DNA of 64,000 bases, taken from an uncultured Jannaschia sp. Its GTDB lineage: Bacteria > Pseudomonadota > Alphaproteobacteria > Rhodobacterales > Rhodobacteraceae. The number at the start of each line of letters is the position of its first letter. The first letter of the stretch is position 1. The position numbers were made by a program, and so were the translations under genes. Where the stretch lies: the NCBI RefSeq assembly GCF_947494025.1, contig NZ_CANLTQ010000002.1, positions 1 to 64,000 on the forward strand, given 5' to 3'. Below are positions 42,033 to 54,944 of the stretch, piece after piece. Under the pieces are notes generated by a model that ran no database searches, was not told the DNA's origin, and saw only the letters and a program-made list of their open reading frames with translations.

Positions 42033-42106
42033 TGGAGCGGGTAACGGGAATCGAACCCGTAACTGAAGCTTGGGAAGCTTTCGTGATACCTTTTCACCAT
42101 ACCCGC
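42033..42106 (-). tRNA. tRNA-Gly (anticodon CCC)
   Basis: A 74-base cloverleaf with encoded CCA on the minus strand. Acceptor GCGGGTA/TACCCGC, D stem GTGA/TCAC, anticodon loop TTCCCAA (reads GGG), T arm ACGGG-TTCGATT-CCCGT. The outermost anticodon-stem pair (27-43) is A-C, a mild irregularity. Without the island to its right it would lie about 45 bases downstream of the tRNA-Asn gene on the same strand. Confidence 0.95.
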
Positions 42107-42151
42107 CGCGTCGCCCCGAACATCCCTTGACGATGCGAATGTTGGGGAAGA

Positions 42152-42165
42152 TTGGCTCCGGCGGT
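42152..42165 (+). repeat. Left attachment-site copy of the tRNA-Asn 3' end
   Basis: TTGGCTCCGGCGGT here is identical over 14 bases and in the same orientation to the 3' terminus of the tRNA-Asn gene at 54869-54882. Beyond it 7 of the next 12 bases also agree with the tRNA T arm, which suggests a longer decayed copy. The repeat also forms part of a hairpin GCTCCGG/CCGGAGC (42155-42177). Confidence 0.75.
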
Positions 42166-42177
42166 CGCGACCGGAGC

Positions 42178-43174
42178 GTAGACCTCAAGATACTGTAACG
42201 ACTAACCTTTCCGGGATCGACTCCTGTCCGACGCCGCGATGTGCCAGCAGAAGTGCCATACCCTGTGCCACGACACAAGTCCTCGTCGCGATCCGGGATC
42301 GCATCAGTCGATCCCGATCGCGCCGGGTGCTTCGAATGCTGCCGAGGGCGGCCCGTCCCGATCGAAGAGCGCTCGCTTTGTCGCCCCAAGGATGTCCTCG
42401 CCCGGCTCCTGGCTCTGCTTCGATCCGAGTTCCTTCCTGAGACCTGCGAGGTCTTCGCGTGTGTCGCCCATCGGCCAGAGGGCCTGGGATGTCATGAGCC
42501 GCTTTCGCTGTATCAGGCTCTGGAGAAGAAAACCGAAGGATGGACTTGCCCGTCCGTTCAGTGTTCGGCGCGGGTCAACGAACTGTCGGAACCGTCGGGC
42601 CATTTCTTGACGAGGAATGGGCCGAGGTCCATCAGGGGTTCCAAGCGACCCCTTGAGCGAGGCGGCGTTGCAGACCTCTGACGTTCGGCATGATTGCCCC
42701 GCCCCCCGACGGCGTTGTGCGACATGCGCCTGTCAGAACGGGAAGACGATACCGACGCCGACGCGGGTGCCATCCGGCGCTTTGCCGTGATCGCCGCTGA
42801 AGGGGGACGCGGGTAGGGCGACTTTTTCATGTCTAACCGGAAGACAAGCGCCGGGACTGCTATTTAGAAGACCGATCAGGCAAGACCCCATTCGAGATCG
42901 CCATGAGCTTCGGGTCCATCGCCACCGCTGGCGTCGGGCGCCGACTGCAACGCGATGAATCTGGATCGGTAATCGTCTACAATCTTGCGTCCCTATAAAC
43001 ACTCCGGACGGTCTGTAATATGGTGAGGCCGTGTATCCGACATATTGCGGTGAAACGAAGCTTCGTCGCGGCAGAACACGCGTCGCGCGATGCACGGTGC
43101 GGCATATTATGCTGCGGGAAATATGTCCGAGCGACACATGCTATAGCGGGATGGAGTTGCGTCGCGGCGTCGGA
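42178..43174. other. Gene-poor decayed region at the left end of the island
   Basis: About one kilobase with no convincing gene. It is richer in A/T than the flanks. Minus-strand frames at 42304-42603 and 42733-43137 are open but match nothing recognised. The second ends in the peptide GKAPDGTRVGVGIVFPF, whose alternating hydrophobics and terminal Phe resemble the last strand of an outer-membrane barrel, so a decayed porin-like gene is conceivable. The remainder shows no tRNA or strong hairpin. Confidence 0.4.
42241..42270 (+). repeat. Three GTGCCA repeats at 12-bp spacing
   Basis: GTGCCA occurs at 42241, 42253 and 42265, exactly 12 bases apart, with unrelated 6-base spacers (gcagaa, taccct). 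They lie about 75 bases inside the left attachment copy. Short phased direct repeats next to an att site are typical of recombinase arm-type sites; this role is inferred. Confidence 0.6.
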
Positions 43175-43654
43175 TCAGACTGGCACGATCAAAGAGTGCT
43201 TCACGCGTTTCAAGGTGAAAGAGGTGCTGATCGACTGAACGTTCGGCAACTCGACGATGGCGTTCTTCACCGTTCCCTCGTAGTCGCGCACGCTTTTCGC
43301 GATCACCTGTAGAACATAGTCATGATCGCCGCTGAGCGAGTAACATTGCATGATTTCCGGCACGTTCTGTACCGCCTCCTCGAAGGCGCGCAGTCGCTCG
43401 CGTTTGTGTTCCGCATTCTTGACGAAGCACAGCACGAGGATGTCGAAGCCGACCGTCTCCGCGTCGACGATGTAGCGCCGGTCGCTGACGACTCCGGCTT
43501 CGCGCAGCCGGCCGAGCCGCCGCCAGCACGGCGAGTGGCTGAGCCCGGTGCGCTCGCCGAGATCACGCATCGTGATGTCGGGCTCGTCCTGGATGATGCG
43601 CAGGATGCGCCGGTCGGCGGCGTCGAGGGTCAGGGAATCGTCGTCGCGGGACAT
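43175..43654 (-). CDS. Lrp/AsnC family transcriptional regulator
   Basis: 159 residues. N-terminal HTH (about residues 10-60: LDAADRRILRIIQDEPDITMRDLGER, TGLSHSPCWRRLGRLREAGVV) and a C-terminal RAM ligand-binding domain (YSLSGDHDYVLQVIAKSVRDYEG, VKNAIVELPNVQSISTSFTLK). Members sense amino acids such as leucine, lysine or asparagine. It is divergent from the leucine-degradation operon with 147 bases between the starts, so it is the likely local regulator, with leucine or its oxoacid as a plausible effector. Confidence 0.95.
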   Translation of the reverse strand: MSRDDDSLTLDAADRRILRIIQDEPDITMRDLGERTGLSHSPCWRRLGRLREAGVVSDRRYIVDAETVGFDILVLCFVKNAEHKRERLRAFEEAVQNVPEIMQCYSLSGDHDYVLQVIAKSVRDYEGTVKNAIVELPNVQSISTSFTLKRVKHSLIVPV

Positions 43655-43731
43655 GGTCGTATCTTGAATAGATGCCGAGGGACGGTGTAACCTGAGCAGG
43701 GCGATTGCAAGGCTCCTGTTGCACCCGGAAC

Positions 43732-43746
43732 TGTGAAACGGTCACA
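43732..43746. promoter_or_regulatory. 15-bp palindrome, candidate Lrp-type operator
   Basis: TGTGA-aacgg-TCACA lies in the intergenic space between the Lrp/AsnC gene and the operon it faces, 56 bases before the oxidoreductase start. The 15-bp length suits an AsnC/Lrp dimer. The half sites resemble CRP boxes, but the spacer is 5 rather than 6 bases. Confidence 0.45.
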
Positions 43747-43801
43747 ATTAGAGACCTTGTTTCCCGTCTGCCGGTGCATGCTTCGCGTCAGGAGGTGCCC
43801 A

Positions 43802-46800
43802 GTGACGATTTCGCTCGACGACAAATACACTGCCGAGACCGGGCCGGTCTTCATGACCGGAACGCAGGCGCTGGTCCGGCTGCCGATGACGCAGATGCGG
43901 CGCGACCGCGCGGCGGGGCTGAACACCGGCACGTTCATCTCGGGCTACCGCGGATCGCCGCTGGGCAGCTACGACCAGCAGCTGATGAAGGCGCGCAAGC
44001 ATCTCGACCGGCACGACGTGGTGTTCCAGCCGGGGCTGAACGAGGACCTCGCGGCCACCGCGGTCTGGGGCAGCCAGCAGCTGCACCTGTCGGAGGGCGC
44101 GCGCAAGGACGGCGTGCTGGGCATCTGGTATGGCAAGGGGCCGGGTGTCGACCGGTCCGGCGACGTCTTCAAGCACGGCAATGCCGCCGGCAGCGCGGCC
44201 CATGGTGGCGTGTTGGCGATCGCCGGGGACGATCACACCTGCAAGTCGTCGTCGATCCCGCACCAGTCCGACCACGCCTTCATGTCGGCGCTGATGCCGA
44301 TGCTCTATCCGTCCTCGGTGCACGAGTTCCTCGAGATGGGGCTGCTTGGCGTGGCGATGTCGCGGTTCTCGGGCTGCTGGGTCGGCTACAAGGTGATCTC
44401 CGAGACCGTCGAGACGACGACCGTGGTCGACCTCGCGCAGGAAGCGCGCCGCTTCGTCCTGCCCGAGGACATCGCTCTGCCCGAGGGCGGGCTGAACCTT
44501 CGCTGGCCCGACGCGCCGCTGGCGCAGGACGCGCGCCTGCAGGAGATCAAGGGCTACGCGGCCATCGCCTTCGCCCGCGCCAACGGCGTCGATTTCGCGG
44601 CGATCCCCAACGATCGCGCGCGTTTCGGCATCGTCGCCTCCGGCAAGGCCTTCGAGGATGTGCGGCAGGCGCTGGCCGAGCTGGAGCTGGGCCCCGAGGA
44701 ACAGCGCATCATCGGCCTCCGCCTCTACAAGGTGCGGATGCCGTGGCCGCTGGAGCCGCAGGGCATCCGCGCCTTCTCGGAAGGGCTCGATGAGGTGCTG
44801 GTGGTCGAGGAACGGCGCGAGATCATCGAGAACCAGATCAAGCAGCAGCTCTTCAACTGGCGCGCCGACGTGCGGCCGCGCATCGTCGGCAAGTTCGACG
44901 AGGCAGACCGGCCGGTCCTCTCGCTCTCGGCCGGGCTGACCGTGGCTCGCGTCGCGGAGGCGCTGGCCGAGCGTCTGCTGAAGCTCGACCTGCCCGAGGG
45001 GCTGGCCGCGCATGTCGCCCGCCGCGCCGGGGTTCTGAAGGCCGCGGAGGCGCGGGTCGCCGACCATGCCGCGCCGATCACTCGTCTGCCGCATTACTGC
45101 GCCGGCTGCCCGCACAACACCTCGACCCGCGTGCCCGAAGGGTCGAAGGCGATGGCCGGCATCGGTTGCCACTTCATGGCGCAGTGGATGGATCGCAACA
45201 CCGAGACCTTCACCCATATGGGAGCCGAAGGGGTGCCCTGGACCGCAATCTCGCACTTCACCGACGAGGCGCACCGCTTCGTCAACCTCGGCGACGGCAC
45301 CTATTTCCATTCCGGCCATCTCGCGATCCGCCAGTCGGTCGCAGCGGGTGCCGACATCACCTACAAGATCCTCTACAACGACGCCGTAGCGATGACCGGC
45401 GGCCAGCCGGTCGACGGCGTGCTGACTCCGCAGCAGATCACCCACCAGATGTTCCACGAGGGCGTCGCCCGAATCGTGCTGATGTCGGACCGTCCCGACC
45501 TCTACAGCGCGGCCGACCTCGCCCCCGGCACCGAGATCCGCCACCGCGACGACATCGACGCGGTAATGCTGGCGCTGCGCGAGGTGCCCGGCACGACCGT
45601 AATCGTCTTCGAGCAAACCTGCGCGGCAGAAAAGCGCCGTCGCCGCAAGCGCGGGCTCATGGAGGAGCCGGACCTGCGGCTCTGGATCAACCCGGCGGTC
45701 TGCGAGGGCTGCGGCGATTGTTCGGAAAAGTCGAACTGCATCGCGGTGGAGCCGGAAGAGACCGAGATGGGCCGCAAGCGGCGTATCAACCAGTCGATGT
45801 GCAACAAGGATTATTCCTGCCTGAAGGGCTTCTGCCCCTCCTTCGTCAGCGTCCGGGGCGCCATGCCGAAGAAGGCCGTGGCGCAGGACGGGCCGGACGT
45901 CGGCGCGCTGCCCGAGCCGACGTTGCCCGAGATCGACCGGGCCTGGAACCTCGCGGTGACCGGAGTGGGCGGCACCGGCGTGCTGACCATCGGCGCGCTT
46001 CTGGGGATGGCGGCGCATGTCGAGGGCAAGGTGCCGATGATCCTCGACATGGCGGGGCTGGCGCAGAAGGGCGGCGCGGTGCTGAGCCATGTCCGGATCT
46101 CGCGCCCCGACCGGCCGACCGCCGCACCGCGCATCGCTGCGGGCGGAGCGGATCTGCTGCTTGCCGCCGATGCGGTCGTCGCGGCGTCGAAAGAGGCGAT
46201 CCTGCTTTGCGATCCGGCGCGCACCGCGGCCGTGCTGAACGTGCGGGTGACGCCGACGTCCGACTTCGTGCGCCTGCGCGACTTCGACTTCCGTGCGGCA
46301 TCGGTCGAACGCACCGTGGAGAAGGCGGTGCGCTCGCGCGACCACTTCCACAACTTCTCCGACTTCGCGGTGGCGCTGACCGGCGACGAGATCGGCGCCA
46401 ACATGATGATGCTGGGCTATGCCTGGCAGCGCGGGCTGATCCCGCTGGGGCGCGACGCCATTGCCCGGGCCGTGGAGCTGAACGGCGTGGCTGTGGCCGC
46501 GAACCTCGCGGCCTTCGACTGGGGCCGGCTTCTGGCGCATGACGCGGACGCGGTGGCACGGGCGGCGGGACCGGACCGGAAGGGCGCGACGCCGCTGGCC
46601 GAGATGTCGACCGAGGAGATCATCGCCCACCGCAAGGACCACCTGCGCGCCTACCAGAACGCTCGGTTGGCGGAGCACTACGGCGCGCGGCTTGACCGCT
46701 TCGCCGAGGCACTCGAGGCGAAGGGGCTGGCTGACAGCGGGTTGCTGCGGCTGGCGGCGATCTCCTATGCCCGCGTTCTGGCCTACAAGGACGAATACGA

Positions 46801-47263
46801 GGTCGCCCGGCTCTATGCCGATCCCGCCTTCCGGCGCGGGCTGGCCGCGAGTTTCGACGGCGACCTCAAGATCTCCTTCAATCTCGCGCCGCCGATGCTG
46901 TCCGGGACGGATTCTTCCGGCCGACCGAAGAAACGCGCCTTCGGGTTGTGGATTCTTCCGCTCTTCGGAGTCCTGGCCCGGATGAAGGGGCTGCGTGGCA
47001 CTTGGGCCGACCCGTTCGGCCGGACCGCGGAACGGCGGAGCGAACGCGCGCTGATCCGCCTTGTCGAAGCCGATCTCGACTTTGCCGAGGAGGTCTTGTG
47101 TTCCGAGGCCCTGCCGCAGGTGCGGTCGCTTCTGGCCCTGCCGGGCGAGATCCGCGGTTTCGGCCCGGTCAAGGAAGCCGCCATGCAGACACAGCTCGCG
47201 CGCCGGGACGCGCTGCGCGCCGCGCTACGGAAGAAGACGACCGCCGCCATCGCGGCGGAGTGA
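43802..47263 (+). CDS. Fused indolepyruvate-type 2-oxoacid:ferredoxin oxidoreductase
   Basis: 1153 residues, fusing the IorA and IorB halves as in many proteobacteria. N-terminal ThDP/pyrimidine part (SGYRGSPLGSYD near residue 40), CAGCPHNTSTR near 433, a ThDP domain with GDGTYFHSG, a Cys-rich Fe-S region (CEGCGDCSEKSNC near 633 and CNKDYSCLKGFC near 667), and a C-terminal gamma-type domain starting AVTGVGGTGVLTIG near 718. Oxidatively decarboxylates 2-oxoacids to acyl-CoA. In this operon branched-chain oxoacids are plausible substrates, an inference. GTG at 43802 was chosen for the aggaggt site 5 bases upstream. Confidence 0.9.
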   Translation: MTISLDDKYTAETGPVFMTGTQALVRLPMTQMRRDRAAGLNTGTFISGYRGSPLGSYDQQLMKARKHLDRHDVVFQPGLNEDLAATAVWGSQQLHLSEGARKDGVLGIWYGKGPGVDRSGDVFKHGNAAGSAAHGGVLAIAGDDHTCKSSSIPHQSDHAFMSALMPMLYPSSVHEFLEMGLLGVAMSRFSGCWVGYKVISETVETTTVVDLAQEARRFVLPEDIALPEGGLNLRWPDAPLAQDARLQEIKGYAAIAFARANGVDFAAIPNDRARFGIVASGKAFEDVRQALAELELGPEEQRIIGLRLYKVRMPWPLEPQGIRAFSEGLDEVLVVEERREIIENQIKQQLFNWRADVRPRIVGKFDEADRPVLSLSAGLTVARVAEALAERLLKLDLPEGLAAHVARRAGVLKAAEARVADHAAPITRLPHYCAGCPHNTSTRVPEGSKAMAGIGCHFMAQWMDRNTETFTHMGAEGVPWTAISHFTDEAHRFVNLGDGTYFHSGHLAIRQSVAAGADITYKILYNDAVAMTGGQPVDGVLTPQQITHQMFHEGVARIVLMSDRPDLYSAADLAPGTEIRHRDDIDAVMLALREVPGTTVIVFEQTCAAEKRRRRKRGLMEEPDLRLWINPAVCEGCGDCSEKSNCIAVEPEETEMGRKRRINQSMCNKDYSCLKGFCPSFVSVRGAMPKKAVAQDGPDVGALPEPTLPEIDRAWNLAVTGVGGTGVLTIGALLGMAAHVEGKVPMILDMAGLAQKGGAVLSHVRISRPDRPTAAPRIAAGGADLLLAADAVVAASKEAILLCDPARTAAVLNVRVTPTSDFVRLRDFDFRAASVERTVEKAVRSRDHFHNFSDFAVALTGDEIGANMMMLGYAWQRGLIPLGRDAIARAVELNGVAVAANLAAFDWGRLLAHDADAVARAAGPDRKGATPLAEMSTEEIIAHRKDHLRAYQNARLAEHYGARLDRFAEALEAKGLADSGLLRLAAISYARVLAYKDEYEVARLYADPAFRRGLAASFDGDLKISFNLAPPMLSGTDSSGRPKKRAFGLWILPLFGVLARMKGLRGTWADPFGRTAERRSERALIRLVEADLDFAEEVLCSEALPQVRSLLALPGEIRGFGPVKEAAMQTQLARRDALRAALRKKTTAAIAAE

Positions 47264-47275
47264 GGAAGGATAGAA

Positions 47276-48442
47276 ATGTTTAACGCATCCATGACCTTCG
47301 ACCTCGGCGACGAGGTTAACGCCTTGCGAGACACGGTGCACCGCTGGGCGCAGGAGCGGGTCAAGCCGCTTGCCGGCCGGATCGACCAGACAAACGAGTT
47401 CCCGGAAGAGCTTTGGGAAGAGATGGGCGATCTCGGCTTGCTCGGCATCACTGTGCCCGATGAGGATGGCGGCACGGGCATGGGATATCTTGCCCACGTG
47501 GTTGCGGTAGAAGAGATCGCCCGCGCCTCGGCCAGCGTGTCGCAGAGCTACGGCGCGCATTCCAACCTCTGCGTAAACCAGATCAAGCTGAACGGCACGG
47601 CCGAGCAGAAGGCGAAATACCTGCCCGACCTGATCTCCGGCCGCGCCGTCGGCGCGCTGGCGATGTCCGAGGCCGGCGCCGGCTCGGACGTGGTGTCGAT
47701 GTCGCTTCGGGCCGAGAAGACGGGCAATTCCTCCTACGTTCTGAACGGCAGCAAGTTCTGGATCACCAATGGTGGCGAGGCCTCGACCCTGGTGGTCTAC
47801 GCCAAGACCGACCCAAGCGCGGGGTCGAAAGGCATCACGGCCTTCCTGATCGAAAAGACGATGCCCGGCTTCTCGCAGTCGCCGCATTTCGACAAGCTCG
47901 GGATGCGCGGGTCGAACACCGTGGAACTGGTGTTCGAGGACGTCGATGTGCCGGCCGAGAACATCCTCGGGCAGGAGGGCCGCGGCACGCGCGTCCTGAT
48001 GTCGGGTCTCGATTACGAGCGAGTGGTGCTCTCGGGCATCGGCCTCGGCATCATGGCGGCCTGCATGGACGAGATCATGCCGTATCTTCTCGAGCGCAAG
48101 CAGTTTGGCCAGCCGATCGGTTCGTTCCAGCTGATGCAGGGCAAGATCGCCGACATCTACACCAAGATGAACTCGGCCCGCGCCTACGTCTACGAGGTGG
48201 CGAAGGCGTGCGATGGCGGTCGGGTGACCCGGCAGGACGCCGCGGCCTGCGTGCTCTACGCCTCCGAGGAGGCGATGGTCGTCGCGCATCAGGCGGTGCA
48301 GGCGATAGGCGGCGCGGGCTTCATGAACGAGACGCCTGTCAGCCGCATCTTCCGTGATGCCAAGCTGATGGAAATCGGCGCCGGCACCTCGGAGATCCGG
48401 CGCATGCTGATCGGCCGCGAACTGATGGGGACGATGTCCTGA
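47276..48442 (+). CDS. ivd: Isovaleryl-CoA dehydrogenase
   Basis: 388 residues, acyl-CoA dehydrogenase family. FAD/substrate motifs are [46 protein letters not shown] and the C-terminal [32 protein letters not shown]. The catalytic base is at Glu248 in [12 protein letters not shown], the position characteristic of IVD rather than of straight-chain enzymes, where it lies near the C-terminus. Oxidises isovaleryl-CoA to 3-methylcrotonyl-CoA. It starts 12 bases after the oxidoreductase stop and shares one base with mccB. Confidence 0.93.
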
Positions 48443-50049
48443 TGGCCGTTCTCCAGTCCTCCCTGTCGCCGCGGTCCGAGGTCTTTGCTGCAAACCGGGT
48501 GGCGCACGAAGCGGCGCTCGCCCCAGTGCGTGCGGCTGCCGAGGTCGCGCTTGCCGGCGGCGGTCCGGCGGCGCGCGAACGACACGTGGGCCGCGGCAAG
48601 ATCCTGCCGCGCGAGCGGGTGGCGCGGCTGCTTGATCCCGGCTCGCCGTTCCTCGAGGTCGGCATGTTCGCCGCGCACGGACTCTACGAGGGCGCCAGCC
48701 CCTCGGCCGGCGTCGTAACCGGTATCGGCCGAGTCTCGGGCCGCGAGGTCATGGTCGTCTGCAACGACGCTACCGTGAAGGGCGGCACCTACTACCCGAT
48801 GACGGTCAAGAAACATCTGCGCGCGCAGGAGATCGCCGAGACCAACCGGCTGCCCTGCGTCTACCTTGTGGATTCCGGGGGCGCCAACCTGCGGAACCAA
48901 GACGAGGTCTTTCCCGACCGCGACCATTTCGGACGGATTTTCTTCAACCAGGCCAACATGTCGGCCAAGGGGATTCCGCAGATCGCTGTCGTCATGGGCT
49001 CCTGCACCGCGGGCGGGGCCTACGTGCCGGCGATGTCGGACGTCACCATCATCGTGCGCGAGCAGGGCACCATATTCCTCGCCGGCCCGCCCTTAGTGAA
49101 GGCCGCGACAGGCGAGGTGGTGACCGCCGAGGATCTCGGCGGCGGCGACGTGCACACGCGTCTCTCGGGCGTGGCCGATTACCTCGCCAACGACGACGCA
49201 CACGCGCTGGCGCTGGCGCGGCAAGCGGTGGCCAACCTGAACCTCACGAAGCCCGCGACGGTGGAGCTCCGGACACCGGAGCCGCCGGCCTACGATCCGG
49301 ACGAGATCCTCGGCGTGGTCCCGGCCGACTTGAAGACGCCCTACGACATCCGCGAGGTCATTGCCCGCGTGGTCGACGGCTCGCGCTTCGACGAGTTCAA
49401 GGCGCGCTACGGCACGACGCTGGTCTGCGGCTTTGCCCATGTCATGGGCATGCCCGTTGGCATCGTCGCCAATAACGGCGTGCTGTTCTCGGAAGCCGCG
49501 ATGAAAGGCGCGCATTTCGTCGAGCTCTGTTCGCAGCGCAAAATCCCGCTGGTGTTCCTTCAGAACATCACCGGCTTCATGGTCGGCCGCGCCTACGAGA
49601 GCGCCGGGATCGCCAAGGACGGCGCCAAGCTTGTGACCGCGGTGGCGACCACCTCCGTGCCGAAGATCACGATGCTCGTTGGCGGTTCGTTCGGCGCGGG
49701 CAATTACGGCATGTGCGGCCGGGCCTATTCGCCCCGTTTTCTCTGGACCTGGCCGAACAGCCGCATCTCCGTGATGGGCGGCGCGCAGGCGGCGGGCGTG
49801 CTGGCCACCGTCCGCCGCGACGCGGTCGAGCGCAAGGGCGGCAGTTGGTCGGCCGAGGAGGAGACCGAGTTCAAGCGACCGACGATCGAGATGTTCGAGC
49901 GCCAGTCGCACCCGCTCTACGCCGCGTCGCGGCTCTGGGACGACGGCATCGTCGACCCGCGCAAGAGCCGCGAGGTGCTGGCGCTAAGCCTCGCCGCCGC
50001 GCTCAACGCACCGATCGAGGATACGCGCTTCGGCGTGTTCCGGATGTGA
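48442..50049 (+). CDS. mccB: Methylcrotonyl-CoA carboxylase, carboxyltransferase subunit
   Basis: 535 residues. The acyl-CoA carboxyltransferase fold is recognised from [77 protein letters not shown], and the C-terminal domain [13 protein letters not shown]-like ([16 protein letters not shown]) with [15 protein letters not shown]. These features fit MccB better than propionyl-CoA carboxylase beta. Transfers CO2 from biotin on MccA to 3-methylcrotonyl-CoA. It overlaps ivd by one base and ends 11 bases before mccA. Confidence 0.93.
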
Positions 50050-50060
50050 GGGGGGACGCG

Positions 50061-52061
50061 ATGTTCCAGAAGATCCTTATCGCGAACCGGGGCGAGATCG
50101 CCTGCCGGGTGATCGCCACCGCCCGCCGGCTCGGCATCCGGACCGTGGCGGTCTATTCCGACGCCGACGCGTCGGCCAAACACGTCGCGCTGGCCGACGA
50201 GGCGGTGCATGTGGGGCCCGCGCCGGTGGCCGAAAGCTATCTGCAGGCCGGGCGCATCATCGATGCCGCCCGCGCAACGGGGGCCGAGGCGATCCACCCG
50301 GGATACGGTTTCCTGTCCGAGAACCCCGATTTCGTCGCGGCCGTCGAGGCGGCGGGCCTTGTCTTCGTCGGCCCGTCGGCGCAGGCGATCCGTGCCATGG
50401 GCCTCAAGGACGCGGCCAAGGCGCTGATGGACAAGGCCGGCGTCCCCGTGGTGCCAGGCTATCACGGCAGCCGGCAGGAGGCGGAGTTCCTGGCCGAGCG
50501 GGCCGAGGAGATCGGCTACCCGGTTCTGATCAAGGCGCGCGCCGGCGGCGGCGGCAAGGGGATGCGGCTGGTCGAGCGGGCAGGGGAATTCGCCGATGCG
50601 CTTGCTTCGGCGCAGCGCGAGGCGAAGACCGCCTTCGGCGACCCCGCCTGCCTGATCGAGAAGTTCGTGCCGCAGCCGCGACACATCGAGATCCAGGTCT
50701 TCGGCGACGCCTGCGGCAACGTCATCCATCTCTTCGAGCGCGACTGCTCTCTCCAGCGCCGTCACCAGAAGGTGATCGAGGAGGCGCCCGCTCCGGACAT
50801 GCCCGAAGAAGTGCGCGCGGCGATGGGGCGGGCGGCGGTCGATGCCGCGAGGGCCATCGGCTACCGCGGCGCCGGCACGGTGGAGTTCATCGTCGACGGC
50901 TCCGGCCCGCTTCGGACCGACGGCTTCTGGTTCATGGAGATGAACACCCGGTTGCAGGTCGAACACCCTGTTTCCGAGGCGATCACCGGGCTCGACTTCG
51001 TCGAGCTGCAACTGCGCGTCGCGGCCGGTGAGCCGCTGCCGGTGGCACAGGACGACCTGAAGATCGACGGCTGGGCCTTCGAGGCGCGGCTTTATGCCGA
51101 GGACGTGGCCAAGGGCTTCCTGCCCGCCACGGGACGGCTCGACTATCTCGCCTTTCCCGAAGGCACGGAGTTCGATCGCGGTCCGGTCCGCATCGACAGC
51201 GGCGTGCGGCAAGGCGACGAGATCAGCCCGTTCTACGACCCGATGATCGCCAAGGTCATTGTGCACGGGCCGACACGGTCGGCGGCGCTCAATCGGCTGA
51301 CCACGGCGCTGGAGGCATGCCGCGTTACGGGATCTGTGACCAACGCTGCATTTCTCGCCGCGCTGTCGCGGCACGACGGGTTCCGGCGCGGCGAGGTGGA
51401 TACCGGCCTCATCGCCCGCGATCTCGGCACGCTGCTGCCCGACGTCGCGGTGCCGGAGACGTCGACCGCCGTCGCCGCGGTGGCCGCGCTGGGGCTGCTG
51501 CGCCCGCGCACCGCGGCCGATCCGTGGGAGCGGCTGGCCGGATGGCGGCACTGGACCGAGGACACCCATCACGCATTGCTGGAGCGCGATGGTGCGCGCA
51601 TCGAACGCGCGGTCACCCAGCACGGGCGCGGCCGCTTCACGATCGACGGGCCAAAGGGGAGCTTGTCCTTCACCATCGCCGCGGCCGGCGGCACCGTCTA
51701 CACGCTCGACATCGGCAACACCCGGTCGCGGGTGGAAGTGGTCCAGGACGGCGCACGCGTCACGGTCTTCGACGGAAGCACTGGCGCGTCCTTCGAGCTT
51801 CCCGACCTTTTGGCCCACGTCGAGGGCGACGAGGCGGGCAGCGACAGCCTCGTCGCGCCAATGCCGGGTCTTGTCATCATGATAGCGGCAGCGGGCCAGA
51901 GTGTCGCGAAAGGAGACGCCCTGGTGGTGCTGGAAGCCATGAAGATGGAGCACACGCTCCGTGCCCCGCGGGACGGGATCGTCGCTGAAGTCTTGGCGAC
52001 GCAGGGCGACCAGGTCAGTGATGGCACGATACTTCTGAAATTGGAGGCCGAGGATGCCTGA
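50061..52061 (+). CDS. mccA: Methylcrotonyl-CoA carboxylase, biotin carboxylase subunit
   Basis: 666 residues. Biotin carboxylase domain (residues 1-450: KILIANRGEIACRVIATARR, IHPGYGFLSENPDFV, KARAGGGGKGMRLVE, EMNTRLQVEHPVSEAITG), a linking domain, and a C-terminal biotinyl domain with VVLEAMKMEHTL, biotin on Lys628. ATP-dependent carboxylation of biotin for MccB. Biotin demand fits the broken biotin-transporter gene found at the end of the operon. It overlaps the HMG-CoA lyase gene by 8 bases. Confidence 0.95.
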   Translation: MFQKILIANRGEIACRVIATARRLGIRTVAVYSDADASAKHVALADEAVHVGPAPVAESYLQAGRIIDAARATGAEAIHPGYGFLSENPDFVAAVEAAGLVFVGPSAQAIRAMGLKDAAKALMDKAGVPVVPGYHGSRQEAEFLAERAEEIGYPVLIKARAGGGGKGMRLVERAGEFADALASAQREAKTAFGDPACLIEKFVPQPRHIEIQVFGDACGNVIHLFERDCSLQRRHQKVIEEAPAPDMPEEVRAAMGRAAVDAARAIGYRGAGTVEFIVDGSGPLRTDGFWFMEMNTRLQVEHPVSEAITGLDFVELQLRVAAGEPLPVAQDDLKIDGWAFEARLYAEDVAKGFLPATGRLDYLAFPEGTEFDRGPVRIDSGVRQGDEISPFYDPMIAKVIVHGPTRSAALNRLTTALEACRVTGSVTNAAFLAALSRHDGFRRGEVDTGLIARDLGTLLPDVAVPETSTAVAAVAALGLLRPRTAADPWERLAGWRHWTEDTHHALLERDGARIERAVTQHGRGRFTIDGPKGSLSFTIAAAGGTVYTLDIGNTRSRVEVVQDGARVTVFDGSTGASFELPDLLAHVEGDEAGSDSLVAPMPGLVIMIAAAGQSVAKGDALVVLEAMKMEHTLRAPRDGIVAEVLATQGDQVSDGTILLKLEAEDA

Positions 52062-52923
52062 GCCGGCACGCGATCCCGTCACCATCTTCGAGATGGGTCC
52101 GCGCGACGGGTTGCAGAACGAGAAGGCGCAGATCGCCACGGCAGACAAGATCCGGCTGGTCGATATGCTCTCGGGCTGCGGCTTCGCCAAGATCGAGGTG
52201 ACGAGCTTCGTCAGCCCGAAATGGGTGCCGCAGATGTCCGATGCCGCGGAGGTCATGTCCGGCATCGACCGCCGCCCCGGCATCGCCTACGCGGTGCTGA
52301 CGCCGAACCTCAAGGGCTTCGAGGCGGCGCAGGCGGCGGGCGCCTCGGAGGTCGCGGTCTTCGCCTCGGCCTCGGAAGGGTTCAGCCGCGCCAATATCAA
52401 CTGCTCGGTGGAGGAGAGCCTCGACCGCTTCGCGCCGATCATGGAGGCCGCCCGCGCGTCCGGGATGCCGGTGCGCGGCTACGTCTCCTGCGTCACCGAC
52501 TGTCCCTATGACGGCGAGATCGCGCCGGAGGCGGTGGTCCGGGTGGCGCGGCGGCTGTGGGACATGGGTTGCTACGAGGTCTCGCTCGCCGACACGATCG
52601 GCGTCGCGGTGCCAGAGCGGGTCGACGCGATGCTGGCGGCGGTACTGGAACACCTGCCGGCGGAGCGGCTTGCCGGGCATTTCCACGACACCGGCGGGCG
52701 GGCTCTCGACAATATCGCGGCAAGCCTCGCCCGAGGTCTCCGGACCTTCGACGCCGCGGTCGGCGGCCTCGGCGGCTGCCCCTACGCGCCCGGGGCCAAG
52801 GGCAATGTCGCGACCGAGAAGGTGGCGGCCGAGATGGCGCGACTGGGGCATCCCACCGGCCTCGACGCCGTGAAACTGGCCGAGGCCGCGTGGTTCGCCC
52901 AAGGCCTCAGGAGCACGGCATGA
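52054..52923 (+). CDS. mvaB: Hydroxymethylglutaryl-CoA lyase
   Basis: 289 residues, TIM-barrel DRE-TIM family. EMGPRDGLQNEKAQI at the N-terminus (metal-binding Asp and Arg), SLADTIGVAVPERV, HFHDTGGRALDN and the lyase signature GGLGGCPYAPGAKGNVATE with the active-site Cys. Splits HMG-CoA to acetoacetate and acetyl-CoA, the last step of leucine degradation. It begins inside mccA and its stop overlaps the next ATG. Confidence 0.95.
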   Translation: MPEPARDPVTIFEMGPRDGLQNEKAQIATADKIRLVDMLSGCGFAKIEVTSFVSPKWVPQMSDAAEVMSGIDRRPGIAYAVLTPNLKGFEAAQAAGASEVAVFASASEGFSRANINCSVEESLDRFAPIMEAARASGMPVRGYVSCVTDCPYDGEIAPEAVVRVARRLWDMGCYEVSLADTIGVAVPERVDAMLAAVLEHLPAERLAGHFHDTGGRALDNIAASLARGLRTFDAAVGGLGGCPYAPGAKGNVATEKVAAEMARLGHPTGLDAVKLAEAAWFAQGLRSTA

Positions 52924-53711
52924 GCTATCAGACCCTCGACATCCGCACCGATGATCGCGGCGTGGCCTATGTCACGTTGAACGTGCCGGACAAGCGCAAC
53001 GTGCTCTCCGCCACGATGATCGCCGAGCTGACCGACATGGCCGGCACGCTCGGCGCGGCAGAGCACACCCGCGCCATCGTGCTCGCGGGCGCCGGGAAAG
53101 TTTTCTGTGCCGGCGGCGACCTCACATGGATGAAGGCGCAGATCGAGGCAGACCGCGAGACCCGGATGCGCGAGGCCCGCAAGCTCGCGATGATGCTGAA
53201 CGCGTTGAACGAGATGCCGACGCCGCTGATCGGCCGACTGCACGGCGGCGCTTTCGGTGGCGGCGTCGGCCTAGCCTGCGTCTGCGACGTGGCGCTGGCG
53301 GCGGAGGGCACCAAGTTTGGGCTGACCGAAACCCGGCTGGGGCTAATCCCGGCGACCATCGGCCCCTACGTGATCGCCCGCATGGGCGAAGGCGTGGCGC
53401 GGCGCGTCTTCATGTCGGCGCGGCTTTTCGAGGCCGCCGAGGCGGCGGAGCTGGGCCTCGTCGCCCGCGCGGCGCCGGAGGCGGACCTCGACGCCGCGGT
53501 CGAGGCCGAGGTCGCGCCCTACCTGTCGGTGGCGCCCGGCGCGGTGGGGCGCGCCAAGGCGCTGGCCCGCAGCCTCGGGCCGCGCATCGATGCCGCCGTG
53601 ATCGACGCCACCATCGCGCGGCTCGCCGACACCTGGGAGACCGACGAGGCGGCGCATGGCATCGACTCTTTCCTCGGTAAGACAACGCCGCGGTGGGCGC
53701 TCACATCCTGA
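52920..53711 (+). CDS. Enoyl-CoA hydratase, probable 3-methylglutaconyl-CoA hydratase
   Basis: 263 residues, crotonase fold. VTLNVPDKRNVLSATMI, AGKVFCAGGDLTWMKAQ (oxyanion-hole Gly), GGAFGGGVGLACVCDVALAAEGTKFG and TETRLGLIPATIGPYVI are present. Completes the pathway between MccAB and HMG-CoA lyase if its substrate is 3-methylglutaconyl-CoA, which the operon context strongly suggests (LiuC role). Sequence alone would allow other enoyl-CoA substrates. It overlaps the lyase stop (ATGA) and ends the operon. Confidence 0.88.
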   Translation: MSYQTLDIRTDDRGVAYVTLNVPDKRNVLSATMIAELTDMAGTLGAAEHTRAIVLAGAGKVFCAGGDLTWMKAQIEADRETRMREARKLAMMLNALNEMPTPLIGRLHGGAFGGGVGLACVCDVALAAEGTKFGLTETRLGLIPATIGPYVIARMGEGVARRVFMSARLFEAAEAAELGLVARAAPEADLDAAVEAEVAPYLSVAPGAVGRAKALARSLGPRIDAAVIDATIARLADTWETDEAAHGIDSFLGKTTPRWALTS

Positions 53712-53758
53712 GGTCCGAGATCTTGGAAAAGATCGTCCAAGCTCTTGGCGGTCCTACG

Positions 53759-54340
53759 ATGGTGCCCGACTTCTCACTGAAAAGCCGCGCTTGGCATTAT
53801 GTGTCGCGACGCGGCGTTCTGCGTTTCTAGTTACTCGCGATTTTAGGCAGCTTGTTGACCGCGATCTCCGCAAAGGTTCGCGTGCCCGTCGGACCTGTTG
53901 ACATGTCACTGCAGACAATTGGGGCTCACATAATTTTCGCAGCTTTCGGGCGCCGGCTCGGATTCGCTACAATTGCCCTATTTTTTGCAAAGGGCGCAGT
54001 TGGGTCTGCCTGTTTTTCAAACACGCCCGAGCGCGGGATTGGCCTTGCTTACATGTTTAGAGCATCGGCGGCTATCTCATAGGATTTGTCGCCATCGCGG
54101 CGATTGTTGGATGGGCTTCGGATCGGGGCCGGTGTGACAACCAACTGCGCGTCGGAGTCGCGATGCTCGCCGGCGAGGTCGTTCTTCAGCTTCTGCGCGC
54201 TCTCTGGTTGATCCAGTTCTTTGGGATATCCGACTGCCTATCCTACGGTGTGGGCACTTCATTGTCCCTGACCTTGGGTTGCTCTATTCTTCGCTGTTCC
54301 GATTCTTGCCTTATGGCGGCTTAGACAGCATGAAATCTTA
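53759..54340 (+). pseudogene. bioY: Decayed bioY (biotin transporter S component)
   Basis: From ATG 53759 the frame reads 23 codons, meets TAG at 53828-53830, then continues in frame as LLAILGSLLTAISAKVRVPVG, PVDMSLQT, FGRRLGFATIALF and TPERGIGLAYM. The frame shifts between about 54053 and 54065 and resumes as IGGYLIGFVAIAAIVGWASDRG and VAMLAGEVVLQLLRALWLIQFFG. A further shift near 54250 would restore a hydrophobic end ALFFAVPILALWRLR. Order, spacing and total length (about 190 codons) match BioY. With one stop and at least one frameshift it cannot make a full protein. Sequencing error is possible but two or more lesions make decay more likely. Confidence 0.8.
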
Positions 54341-54344
54341 GCGA

Positions 54345-54626
54345 TGGGCCGAGAGTTCATCGGTGGAGAGGGTCGAACCGACGCGGATGTTCTCCGGATT
54401 GTTGCCCTTGATCTAAAGCCCTGTTTTCTATTATTTCTCATGTGCGCGCGAGCTTGATCGGAAATTGCCATCTGACTGGGAATTTCACGATGAACCACCG
54501 TGCCGGCTTACCTGCGAGCAACGGCAAGTCATCGGTCTCTGGGAAATTCTAAGGCGTGCGTGTATGAAGCCGGGATTCGGGGAAAAGAGGCAGATAGCAG
54601 AGTCGCTTGGGGAAATTTTCCCATAA
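54345..54626 (+). pseudogene. Second decayed reading frame, unrecognised
   Basis: After the bioY remnant, protein-like sequence continues across frames: GREFIGGEGRTDADVLRIVALDLK, then after a frame change ARELDRKLPSDWEFHDE, and EQRQVIGLWEILRRACMKPGF with GEKRQIAESLGEIFP ending at TAA (54624-54626). The pieces have normal amino-acid balance, unlike shadow frames, but there is no start or family match, and a TAA lies inside. It is probably another broken gene of the island. Confidence 0.35.
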
Positions 54627-54725
54627 CGACGAAGTTGCGCGCGTTCTCGAAACCAGCCTCTCGGTCATGGCGCTCAACGAGGGATGGGACACTCGGATCG
54701 AGTGATGAGTGTCAGCACTTCAAGC

Positions 54726-54755
54726 GGAGAAGGAGAAGGAGAAGGAGAAGGAGAA
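54726..54755 (+). repeat. Five tandem GGAGAA units
   Basis: A perfect (GGAGAA)5 hexanucleotide microsatellite in the noncoding right margin of the island. It makes an artificial Arg-rich or Glu/Lys-rich frame but no gene. The remainder of 54627-54868 shows no other feature. Confidence 0.9.
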
Positions 54756-54868
54756 GGGACCGCGCCTTTTTGCCCATAAATCTAAAGTAATTTTTGGCCG
54801 GGCTTTTAGGTGGATCGACATAAACTTAAAAGGAAAAGGCCAAGTAAGGCGAGGGCTTAAAGTTATAG

Positions 54869-54882
54869 TTGGCTCCGGCGGT
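54869..54882 (+). repeat. Right attachment-site copy at the tRNA-Asn 3' end
   Basis: TTGGCTCCGGCGGT covers the CCA tail, discriminator and acceptor strand of tRNA-Asn on the minus strand, plus one base beyond. It is identical to 42152-42165 in direct orientation. Together they define the proposed ends of the island. Confidence 0.75.
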
Positions 54883-54944
54883 AGGGATCGAACCTACGAC
54901 CAATTGATTAACAGTCAACTGCTCTACCGCTGAGCTACGCCGGA
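54870..54944 (-). tRNA. tRNA-Asn (anticodon GTT)
   Basis: A 75-base cloverleaf with encoded CCA on the minus strand. Acceptor TCCGGCG/CGCCGGA, D arm GCTC/GAGC, anticodon loop CTGTTAA (GTT), T arm GTAGG-TTCGATC-CCTAC. It is intact although it seems to have served as an integration target. Confidence 0.97.

Follow-up and report, generated by a model that had tools for sequence, protein, structure and literature searches.

A 12.7-kb block in the genome of an uncultured Jannaschia sp. (assembly GCF_947494025.1, contig NZ_CANLTQ010000002.1) is, very probably, a genomic island that carries a leucine operon and was inserted at the 3' end of the tRNA-Asn gene after the native leucine cluster had been lost in the common ancestor of this genome and its nearest relative examined, denoted G012. 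The block occupies positions 42,152 to 54,882 of the window, that is, the whole analysed stretch of 64,000 nucleotides (positions 1 to 64,000 of the contig, forward strand). An earlier note, made from the sequence alone, had described the block as a leucine-catabolism island bounded by short direct repeats. Throughout, the genome studied here is also denoted G000, G001 to G019 are 19 congeners, and L-numbers refer to loci from the compared genomes.

The insertion site

The block is framed by two tRNA genes, both identified with ARAGORN and Rfam (RF00005), namely, the tRNA-Asn gene that is the apparent insertion target (anticodon GTT; 54870..54944, minus strand) and the tRNA-Gly gene that is the downstream member of the split pair (CCC; 42033..42106, minus strand). 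The 14-mer TTGGCTCCGGCGGT covers the 3' end of tRNA-Asn as delimited by ARAGORN (54869..54882, plus strand) and recurs exactly, in direct orientation, at 42152..42165 (plus strand); this distal copy, a displaced fragment of the tRNA 3' end, is the presumed att site, and there is no third exact copy anywhere in the 4.39-Mb assembly. The intact tRNA gene points with its 3' end into the block, and 45 bases (42107..42151, minus strand) lie between tRNA-Gly and the distal repeat. When the window is described by an order-1 Markov model, 1.6e-4 exact copies are expected by chance in 12.7 kb if one orientation is counted, and 0.11 in the genome if both strands are. When up to two mismatches are allowed, 1.19 matches are expected window-wide, and 35 of 100 shuffles contain at least two, so the weight of the repeat derives solely from its exactness and its place. 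Beyond the 14-mer the similarity is weak (33 nt at 76%); upstream of it, 15 of 34 nt match, and 13 of 2000 random windows do at least as well. Given this weak similarity, the fragment perhaps was once longer, and the 14 bp may be its decayed remainder.

Stretches adjoining tRNA-Asn were taken from the 19 congeners and from two genomes of other genera. In three of the congeners (G012, G019 and G011), the site is unoccupied: the gene order is tRNA-Met, histidine kinase, MBL hydrolase, tRNA-Asn, 45-46 bases, tRNA-Gly, thioesterase, pgi, pgl and zwf, and the genome studied here has the same order plus the block, which bears out the proposal that an island split this tRNA pair. The spacer between the two tRNA genes measures 151-409 bases in G018, G015 and G016, and 1.9 to about 23 kb separates them in six congeners (G014, G006, G008, G005, G002 and G013); tRNA-Gly was not seen in the stretches, some of them short, from G001, G003, G004, G007, G009, G010 and G017. 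The nearest relative, G012 (95% identity for pgi and 93% for zwf), also locates the end of the insertion. Positions 42107-42151, extended by one base into the repeat, align to its 46-base spacer with 33 of 47 columns identical, and none of 500 shuffles scored as well, whereas the sequence on the island side does not align to this spacer (score -10 versus 17). Because the G012 spacer aligns up to the repeat and the site is empty in these relatives, we conclude that tRNA-Asn received an insert of about 12.7 kb and that the bases now outside the island are the former tRNA-Asn/tRNA-Gly spacer. The leucine genes of the block were not found beside tRNA-Asn in any of the 19 congeners, some of which were represented by only 2.6-8.3 kb downstream (in G004, there are only distant carboxylase matches, at 34% and 45%); the arrangement that the earlier note had named as contrary to its proposal, close relatives with the same genes between the two tRNAs, was thus not encountered.

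The 3' end of tRNA-Asn is an integration hotspot that harbors phage or defence genes in some relatives and is empty in others. It is repeated downstream in five of the 19 congeners (50 nt in G001, 49 in G003, 49 in G007, 24 in G013 and 17 in G002) and, over 47 nt, in G021, a member of another genus. At least five of the 19 have phage-integrase matches within 18 kb of tRNA-Asn on its downstream side: in G001 the evidence is a match to PF00589, and the open reading frame (ORF) adjoining this presumed integrase has no Pfam match; in G007 the match is located 1.6 kb beyond the repeat; in G010 the integrase contains an internal stop; and in G002 and G003 the integrase is accompanied by type I restriction genes and by terminase and capsid genes, respectively. 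In G013, the cargo sampled at the site includes restriction genes. Tyrosine-integrase elements occupy the same site in some relatives, in line with the suggested insertion by a tyrosine recombinase; no integrase was found in the block itself. Restriction, prophage structural or Prim-Pol/SNF2-type genes were also observed at the tRNA-Asn site in the loci L071, L069, L076, L067 and L073.

The cargo and its predicted pathway

All seven cargo genes are open and match known families, in agreement with the description of the block as an isovalerate/leucine module with its own regulator. The gene for the Lrp/AsnC-family regulator (43175..43654, minus strand; Pfam AsnC_trans_reg, 9.7e-20; NCBIfam PRK11169 (Lrp), 2.8e-22, under its cut-off) is divergent from the operon, on the plus strand, that it would regulate. 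The operon starts with a fused indolepyruvate:ferredoxin-type 2-oxoacid oxidoreductase (IOR; 43802..47263; NCBIfam NF009588, 1551 bits, cut-off 952), for which a GTG start after AGGAGG was picked by eye, and continues with ivd (47276..48442), a member of the acyl-CoA dehydrogenase family with Pfam Acyl-CoA_dh domains and no NCBIfam model at cut-off, which, judging from the neighbouring genes, presumably acts on isovaleryl-CoA. Next come the beta subunit of methylcrotonyl-CoA carboxylase (MCC), mccB (48442..50049; Pfam Carboxyl_trans, 1.7e-155), the alpha (biotin) subunit, mccA (50061..52061; Pfam biotin carboxylase domains; BT_MCC_alpha, 1.8e-8), hydroxymethylglutaryl-CoA (HMG-CoA) lyase, hmgl (52054..52923; NCBIfam NF004283, 456.7 bits, cut-off 246), and an enoyl-CoA hydratase, ech (52920..53711; NCBIfam NF005675, 400.5 bits, cut-off 350), which would have the role of methylglutaconyl-CoA hydratase. 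From the IOR gene onward, the genes are tightly packed or overlapping, and isovaleryl-CoA dehydrogenase, both MCC subunits, the hydratase and HMG-CoA lyase are found together, as in a leucine/isovalerate cluster. A scan of positions 42100-43900 for promoters and terminators found nothing.

The enzymes of the leucine pathway convert isovaleryl-CoA to acetoacetate and acetyl-CoA. Specificity of the island-encoded enzymes for this pathway is predicted from family matches and gene linkage, and the operon as a whole would, on this prediction, degrade the 2-oxo acid of leucine to acetoacetate and acetyl-CoA. The genome studied here and G012 contain two strong E1_dh matches each, and IOR is linked to leucine genes in L106, L108, L110, L118, L132, L242, L243 and L245. 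Given this linkage and the lack of a third strong E1_dh match in the two genomes, the IOR is a candidate for the keto-acid step, in which it would make isovaleryl-CoA from the leucine-derived keto acid and so replace the branched-chain keto-acid dehydrogenase (BCKDH). A phmmer search of the IOR against PDB retrieved no relative.

Foreign origin of mccA and probable loss of the native genes

The mccA gene of the island is foreign to the genus. By BLAST, its product is about 58-62% identical to those of the congeners and 72-73% identical to those of Tranquillimonas rosea and G023. In a tree of 82 rows, it pairs with Tranquillimonas (SH-aLRT 99), and the native forms of 11 members of the genus comprise a separate clade (100); forcing it into the congeners was rejected by the approximately unbiased (AU) test (p-AU 1.5e-50). 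In the trees of mccB and ivd, too, the island genes are nearest to Tranquillimonas. The seven genes presumably arrived jointly. IOR of the island type (at least 59% identity) is present in at least nine of 393 other genomes of the family, with two candidates per genome scored. Three of these genomes (G303, G221 and G150, the last one without ivd) have IOR linked to leucine genes and no second mccA match above 55%; five others encode mccA (58-65%) away from IOR, and G027, which is 82% complete, has no full-length mccA.

The native counterpart of the cargo is located elsewhere in the genus. An mccB ortholog 74-82% identical to that of the island lies away from tRNA-Asn in 18 of the 19 congeners, and an IOR paralog with 47-50% identity likewise is present in 18 of 19, G012 having none. 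The best matches in G012 are at 36% for mccB and 51% for mccA. In the genome studied here, other mccB matches do not exceed 37% and other mccA matches 52% (over at least 70 residues), and the single IOR is the island copy. At a representative native locus (L098, in G001), ntp, had and degT lie upstream, slt and nuoA downstream, and ivd, duf1622, mccB, asch, mccA, gst, hmgl and ech in between; among the 11 native loci compared, slt is downstream in all, and had and degT are found in nine each. The genome studied here (G000:C1) and G012 (C3) both retain ntp, had, duf1622, slt and nuoA at this locus, where none of ivd, mccB, asch, mccA, gst, hmgl, ech and degT was detected; DegT homologs (55-59%) are located elsewhere in both genomes. 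The two genomes are collinear at this locus, with 83-91% DNA identity. Because the same genes are missing over a collinear stretch, one deletion before the two lineages split would be the simplest reading. Lacking orthologs of mccA, mccB and IOR (L065, L204), G012 probably is unable to degrade leucine by this route. In G028, from another genus, mccB is present as two overlapping pieces (G028:C3:1329116-1330710) and an IOR copy as three pieces with two TGA stops (3274887-3278298), which suggests decay of the same functions.

Weighing alternative histories

The evolutionary scenario that we favor would start with deletion of the native leucine cluster in the common ancestor of G012 and the genome studied here. 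A tyrosine recombinase would then have inserted the foreign leucine module at the 3' end of tRNA-Asn and thus separated this gene from tRNA-Gly, after which the integrase would have been lost and the margins of the island would have decayed, so that the pathway would be restored in this genome and not in G012. However, the reverse order, with gain first, also could be considered: the common ancestor would have acquired the island and lost the redundant native cluster, and G012 would later have excised the island precisely. The shared absence of the native genes over a collinear stretch is compatible with this order, and so is the 46-base spacer of G012, which is what precise excision would leave; nevertheless, three events are required in place of two, and the spacer of G012 is within a base in length of those of G019 and G011, both of which keep mccB, so we regard gain before loss as unlikely.

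Conceivably, the block could have entered without site-specific recombination, through illegitimate or homologous recombination in the vicinity of the tRNA, with the 14-mer a mere coincidence, as could be surmised from the shortness of the repeat, the failure to find an integrase in the block and a chance-like 13-nt match in G012. This possibility appears quite improbable given that the insertion end defined by the comparison with G012 coincides with the repeat, that the chance expectation is as low as 1.6e-4, and that congeners carry integrase elements at the site, among them G002, with the same layout, a 17-nt repeat and an integrase. Vertical inheritance, with relocation of the native cluster to tRNA-Asn, scarcely deserves credence: the identity of mccB and ivd to those of the congeners is about 80%, and this origin was not firmly rejected for them by the AU test, but under the model used it is refuted for mccA, which is about 58-62% identical to the congeners' compared with 95% for pgi in G012 and 74-83% in the others compared, the block is compact and without the native asch, gst and duf1622, and the island IOR shares only 47-50% identity with that of the congeners.

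Several observations weigh against insertion of a foreign leucine operon at tRNA-Asn after loss of the native cluster. The repeat, at 14 bp, is short, and G012, where there is no island, has 13 nt that match the 3' end of tRNA-Asn 9 kb downstream, probably by chance. The spacer match is strong against G012 alone: 4 of 500 shuffles score as well against G011 and 54 of 500, a non-significant result, against G019. The integrase gene expected inside a tRNA-targeted island was not detected, and neither were the integrase remnants that the earlier note had proposed to look for: a PF00589 search of the genome gave no match within the island (C2:42-55 kb), and Pfam and PHROGs scans, each of ten selected margin ORFs, revealed no integrase or remnant; entry via a tyrosine integrase since lost is what we infer. 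The composition of the cargo is ordinary (GC 0.62-0.71; GC at third codon positions, GC3, 0.84-0.91). The composition test that the earlier note had suggested thus does not mark the cargo as foreign; it is the mccA tree that does. Trees cover three of the seven genes (mccA, mccB and ivd), and joining the island genes to the genus natives gave p-AU values of 0.053 for mccB and 0.175 for ivd, neither firmly rejected. Genome-wide searches of G012 covered mccB, mccA and IOR, with ivd and hmgl searched at the native locus only. As for the pathway, the two E1_dh matches in G012 and the genome studied here are read, by length and ubiquity, as putative pyruvate and 2-oxoglutarate dehydrogenases, and a third strong match is present in six of the 19 congeners (G001, G010, G015, G016, G017 and G018).

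Margins of the island

As the earlier note had it, the margins are gene-poor and more AT-rich than the cargo, with GC of 0.61 on the left (42166..43174) and 0.535 on the right (53712..54868). Scans of selected ORFs recognised an intact gene in neither, and no integrase. The only recognisable gene is a frameshifted remnant of bioY, for biotin uptake, in the degenerate right margin (53891..54252, plus strand), which matches Pfam BioY in two adjacent frames (6.7e-7 and 1.7e-7, the pieces searched apart). A decayed biotin-uptake gene next to a biotin enzyme is, we presume, plausible original cargo. The same margin contains a purine-rich short tandem repeat of the GAGAAG type (about 54727-54757). 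Comparison of margin DNA with the loci yielded nothing at an E-value of 1e-3 (best 0.018 when up to 10 was allowed; a positive control worked), and a search for the source of the margins via the ORFs of the loci returned only self matches.

Comparison with known systems

Islander takes a tRNA gene and its displaced 3' fragment as the island signature, requires an integrase gene and considers a range of 2-200 kb (PMC4383910). The block resembles such islands in having the tRNA gene and the directly oriented displaced fragment at its two ends, in the correct configuration, and its 12.7 kb fall within that range; it differs in that no integrase was found, so the Islander filter, as described there, would reject it, in that the fragment is 14 bp exact, and in its leucine-degradation cargo. 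Beyond the Islander signature, the empty site is seen in relatives. The tRNA-Asn island of G002 (L071) likewise splits the same tRNA pair, with the 17-nt repeat near tRNA-Gly and 11.9 kb between the tRNAs, but it keeps an integrase adjoining tRNA-Asn and carries type I restriction genes.

With respect to the cargo, the block shares isovaleryl-CoA dehydrogenase, the two MCC subunits, the hydratase and HMG-CoA lyase with the liu (leucine/isovalerate utilisation) clusters, and is distinguished by its compactness and by the Lrp-type regulator and fused IOR at its head. The congeners' leucine clusters examined differ as well, being spread out, with asch, gst and duf1622 between the genes and no IOR in the stretches taken. 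By contrast, a compact lrp-ior-ivd-mccB-mccA-hmgl-ech cluster of the same content and order is present in Poseidonocella (L106), Rhodobacter sp. SGA-6-6 (L108), Aureimonas ureilytica (L110), G303 (L242) and G221 (L243). In a variant from G150 (L245), ivd is missing, an asch-like gene separates mccB from mccA, and the Lrp gene sits at the opposite end. No tRNA gene was found in L103-L110, L242, L243 or L245, and none of the ten flank ORFs scanned, out of 38 (L242, L243, L106, L108 and L103), is a mobility gene, seven of the ten being without a Pfam match at 1e-5; the copy described here alone is known to sit at a tRNA gene. Repeated mobility of the compact cluster is, for lack of tRNA or mobility genes at the other loci, not claimed. 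The notion that the genes move as a unit stands inasmuch as they form one block at one site; a mobile element was not demonstrated, and excision as a circle would not be expected of a block that has no integrase. Among the literature titles and abstract openings listed, none describes an island with this leucine module, which is no proof of absence in print.

Implications

The cargo usually associated with islands at tRNA genes consists of phage, defence, virulence or accessory genes. The island is of a known kind, and it is the cargo and the history that are unusual: it carries a pathway whose mccB is encoded elsewhere in 18 of 19 congeners, in a genome that is without the native genes. The block also represents a leucine module in compact form, in which the IOR is a candidate to stand in for BCKDH. 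In our judgment, the odds are about even that an amino-acid catabolic pathway, its entry enzyme included, was here lost in one piece and recovered in one piece, the island having provided anew the deleted cluster as well as the missing IOR, and its linked IOR serving as a self-contained substitute for BCKDH. Comparison of the genome studied here, G012 and any third relative would allow a direct test of the order of loss and regain.

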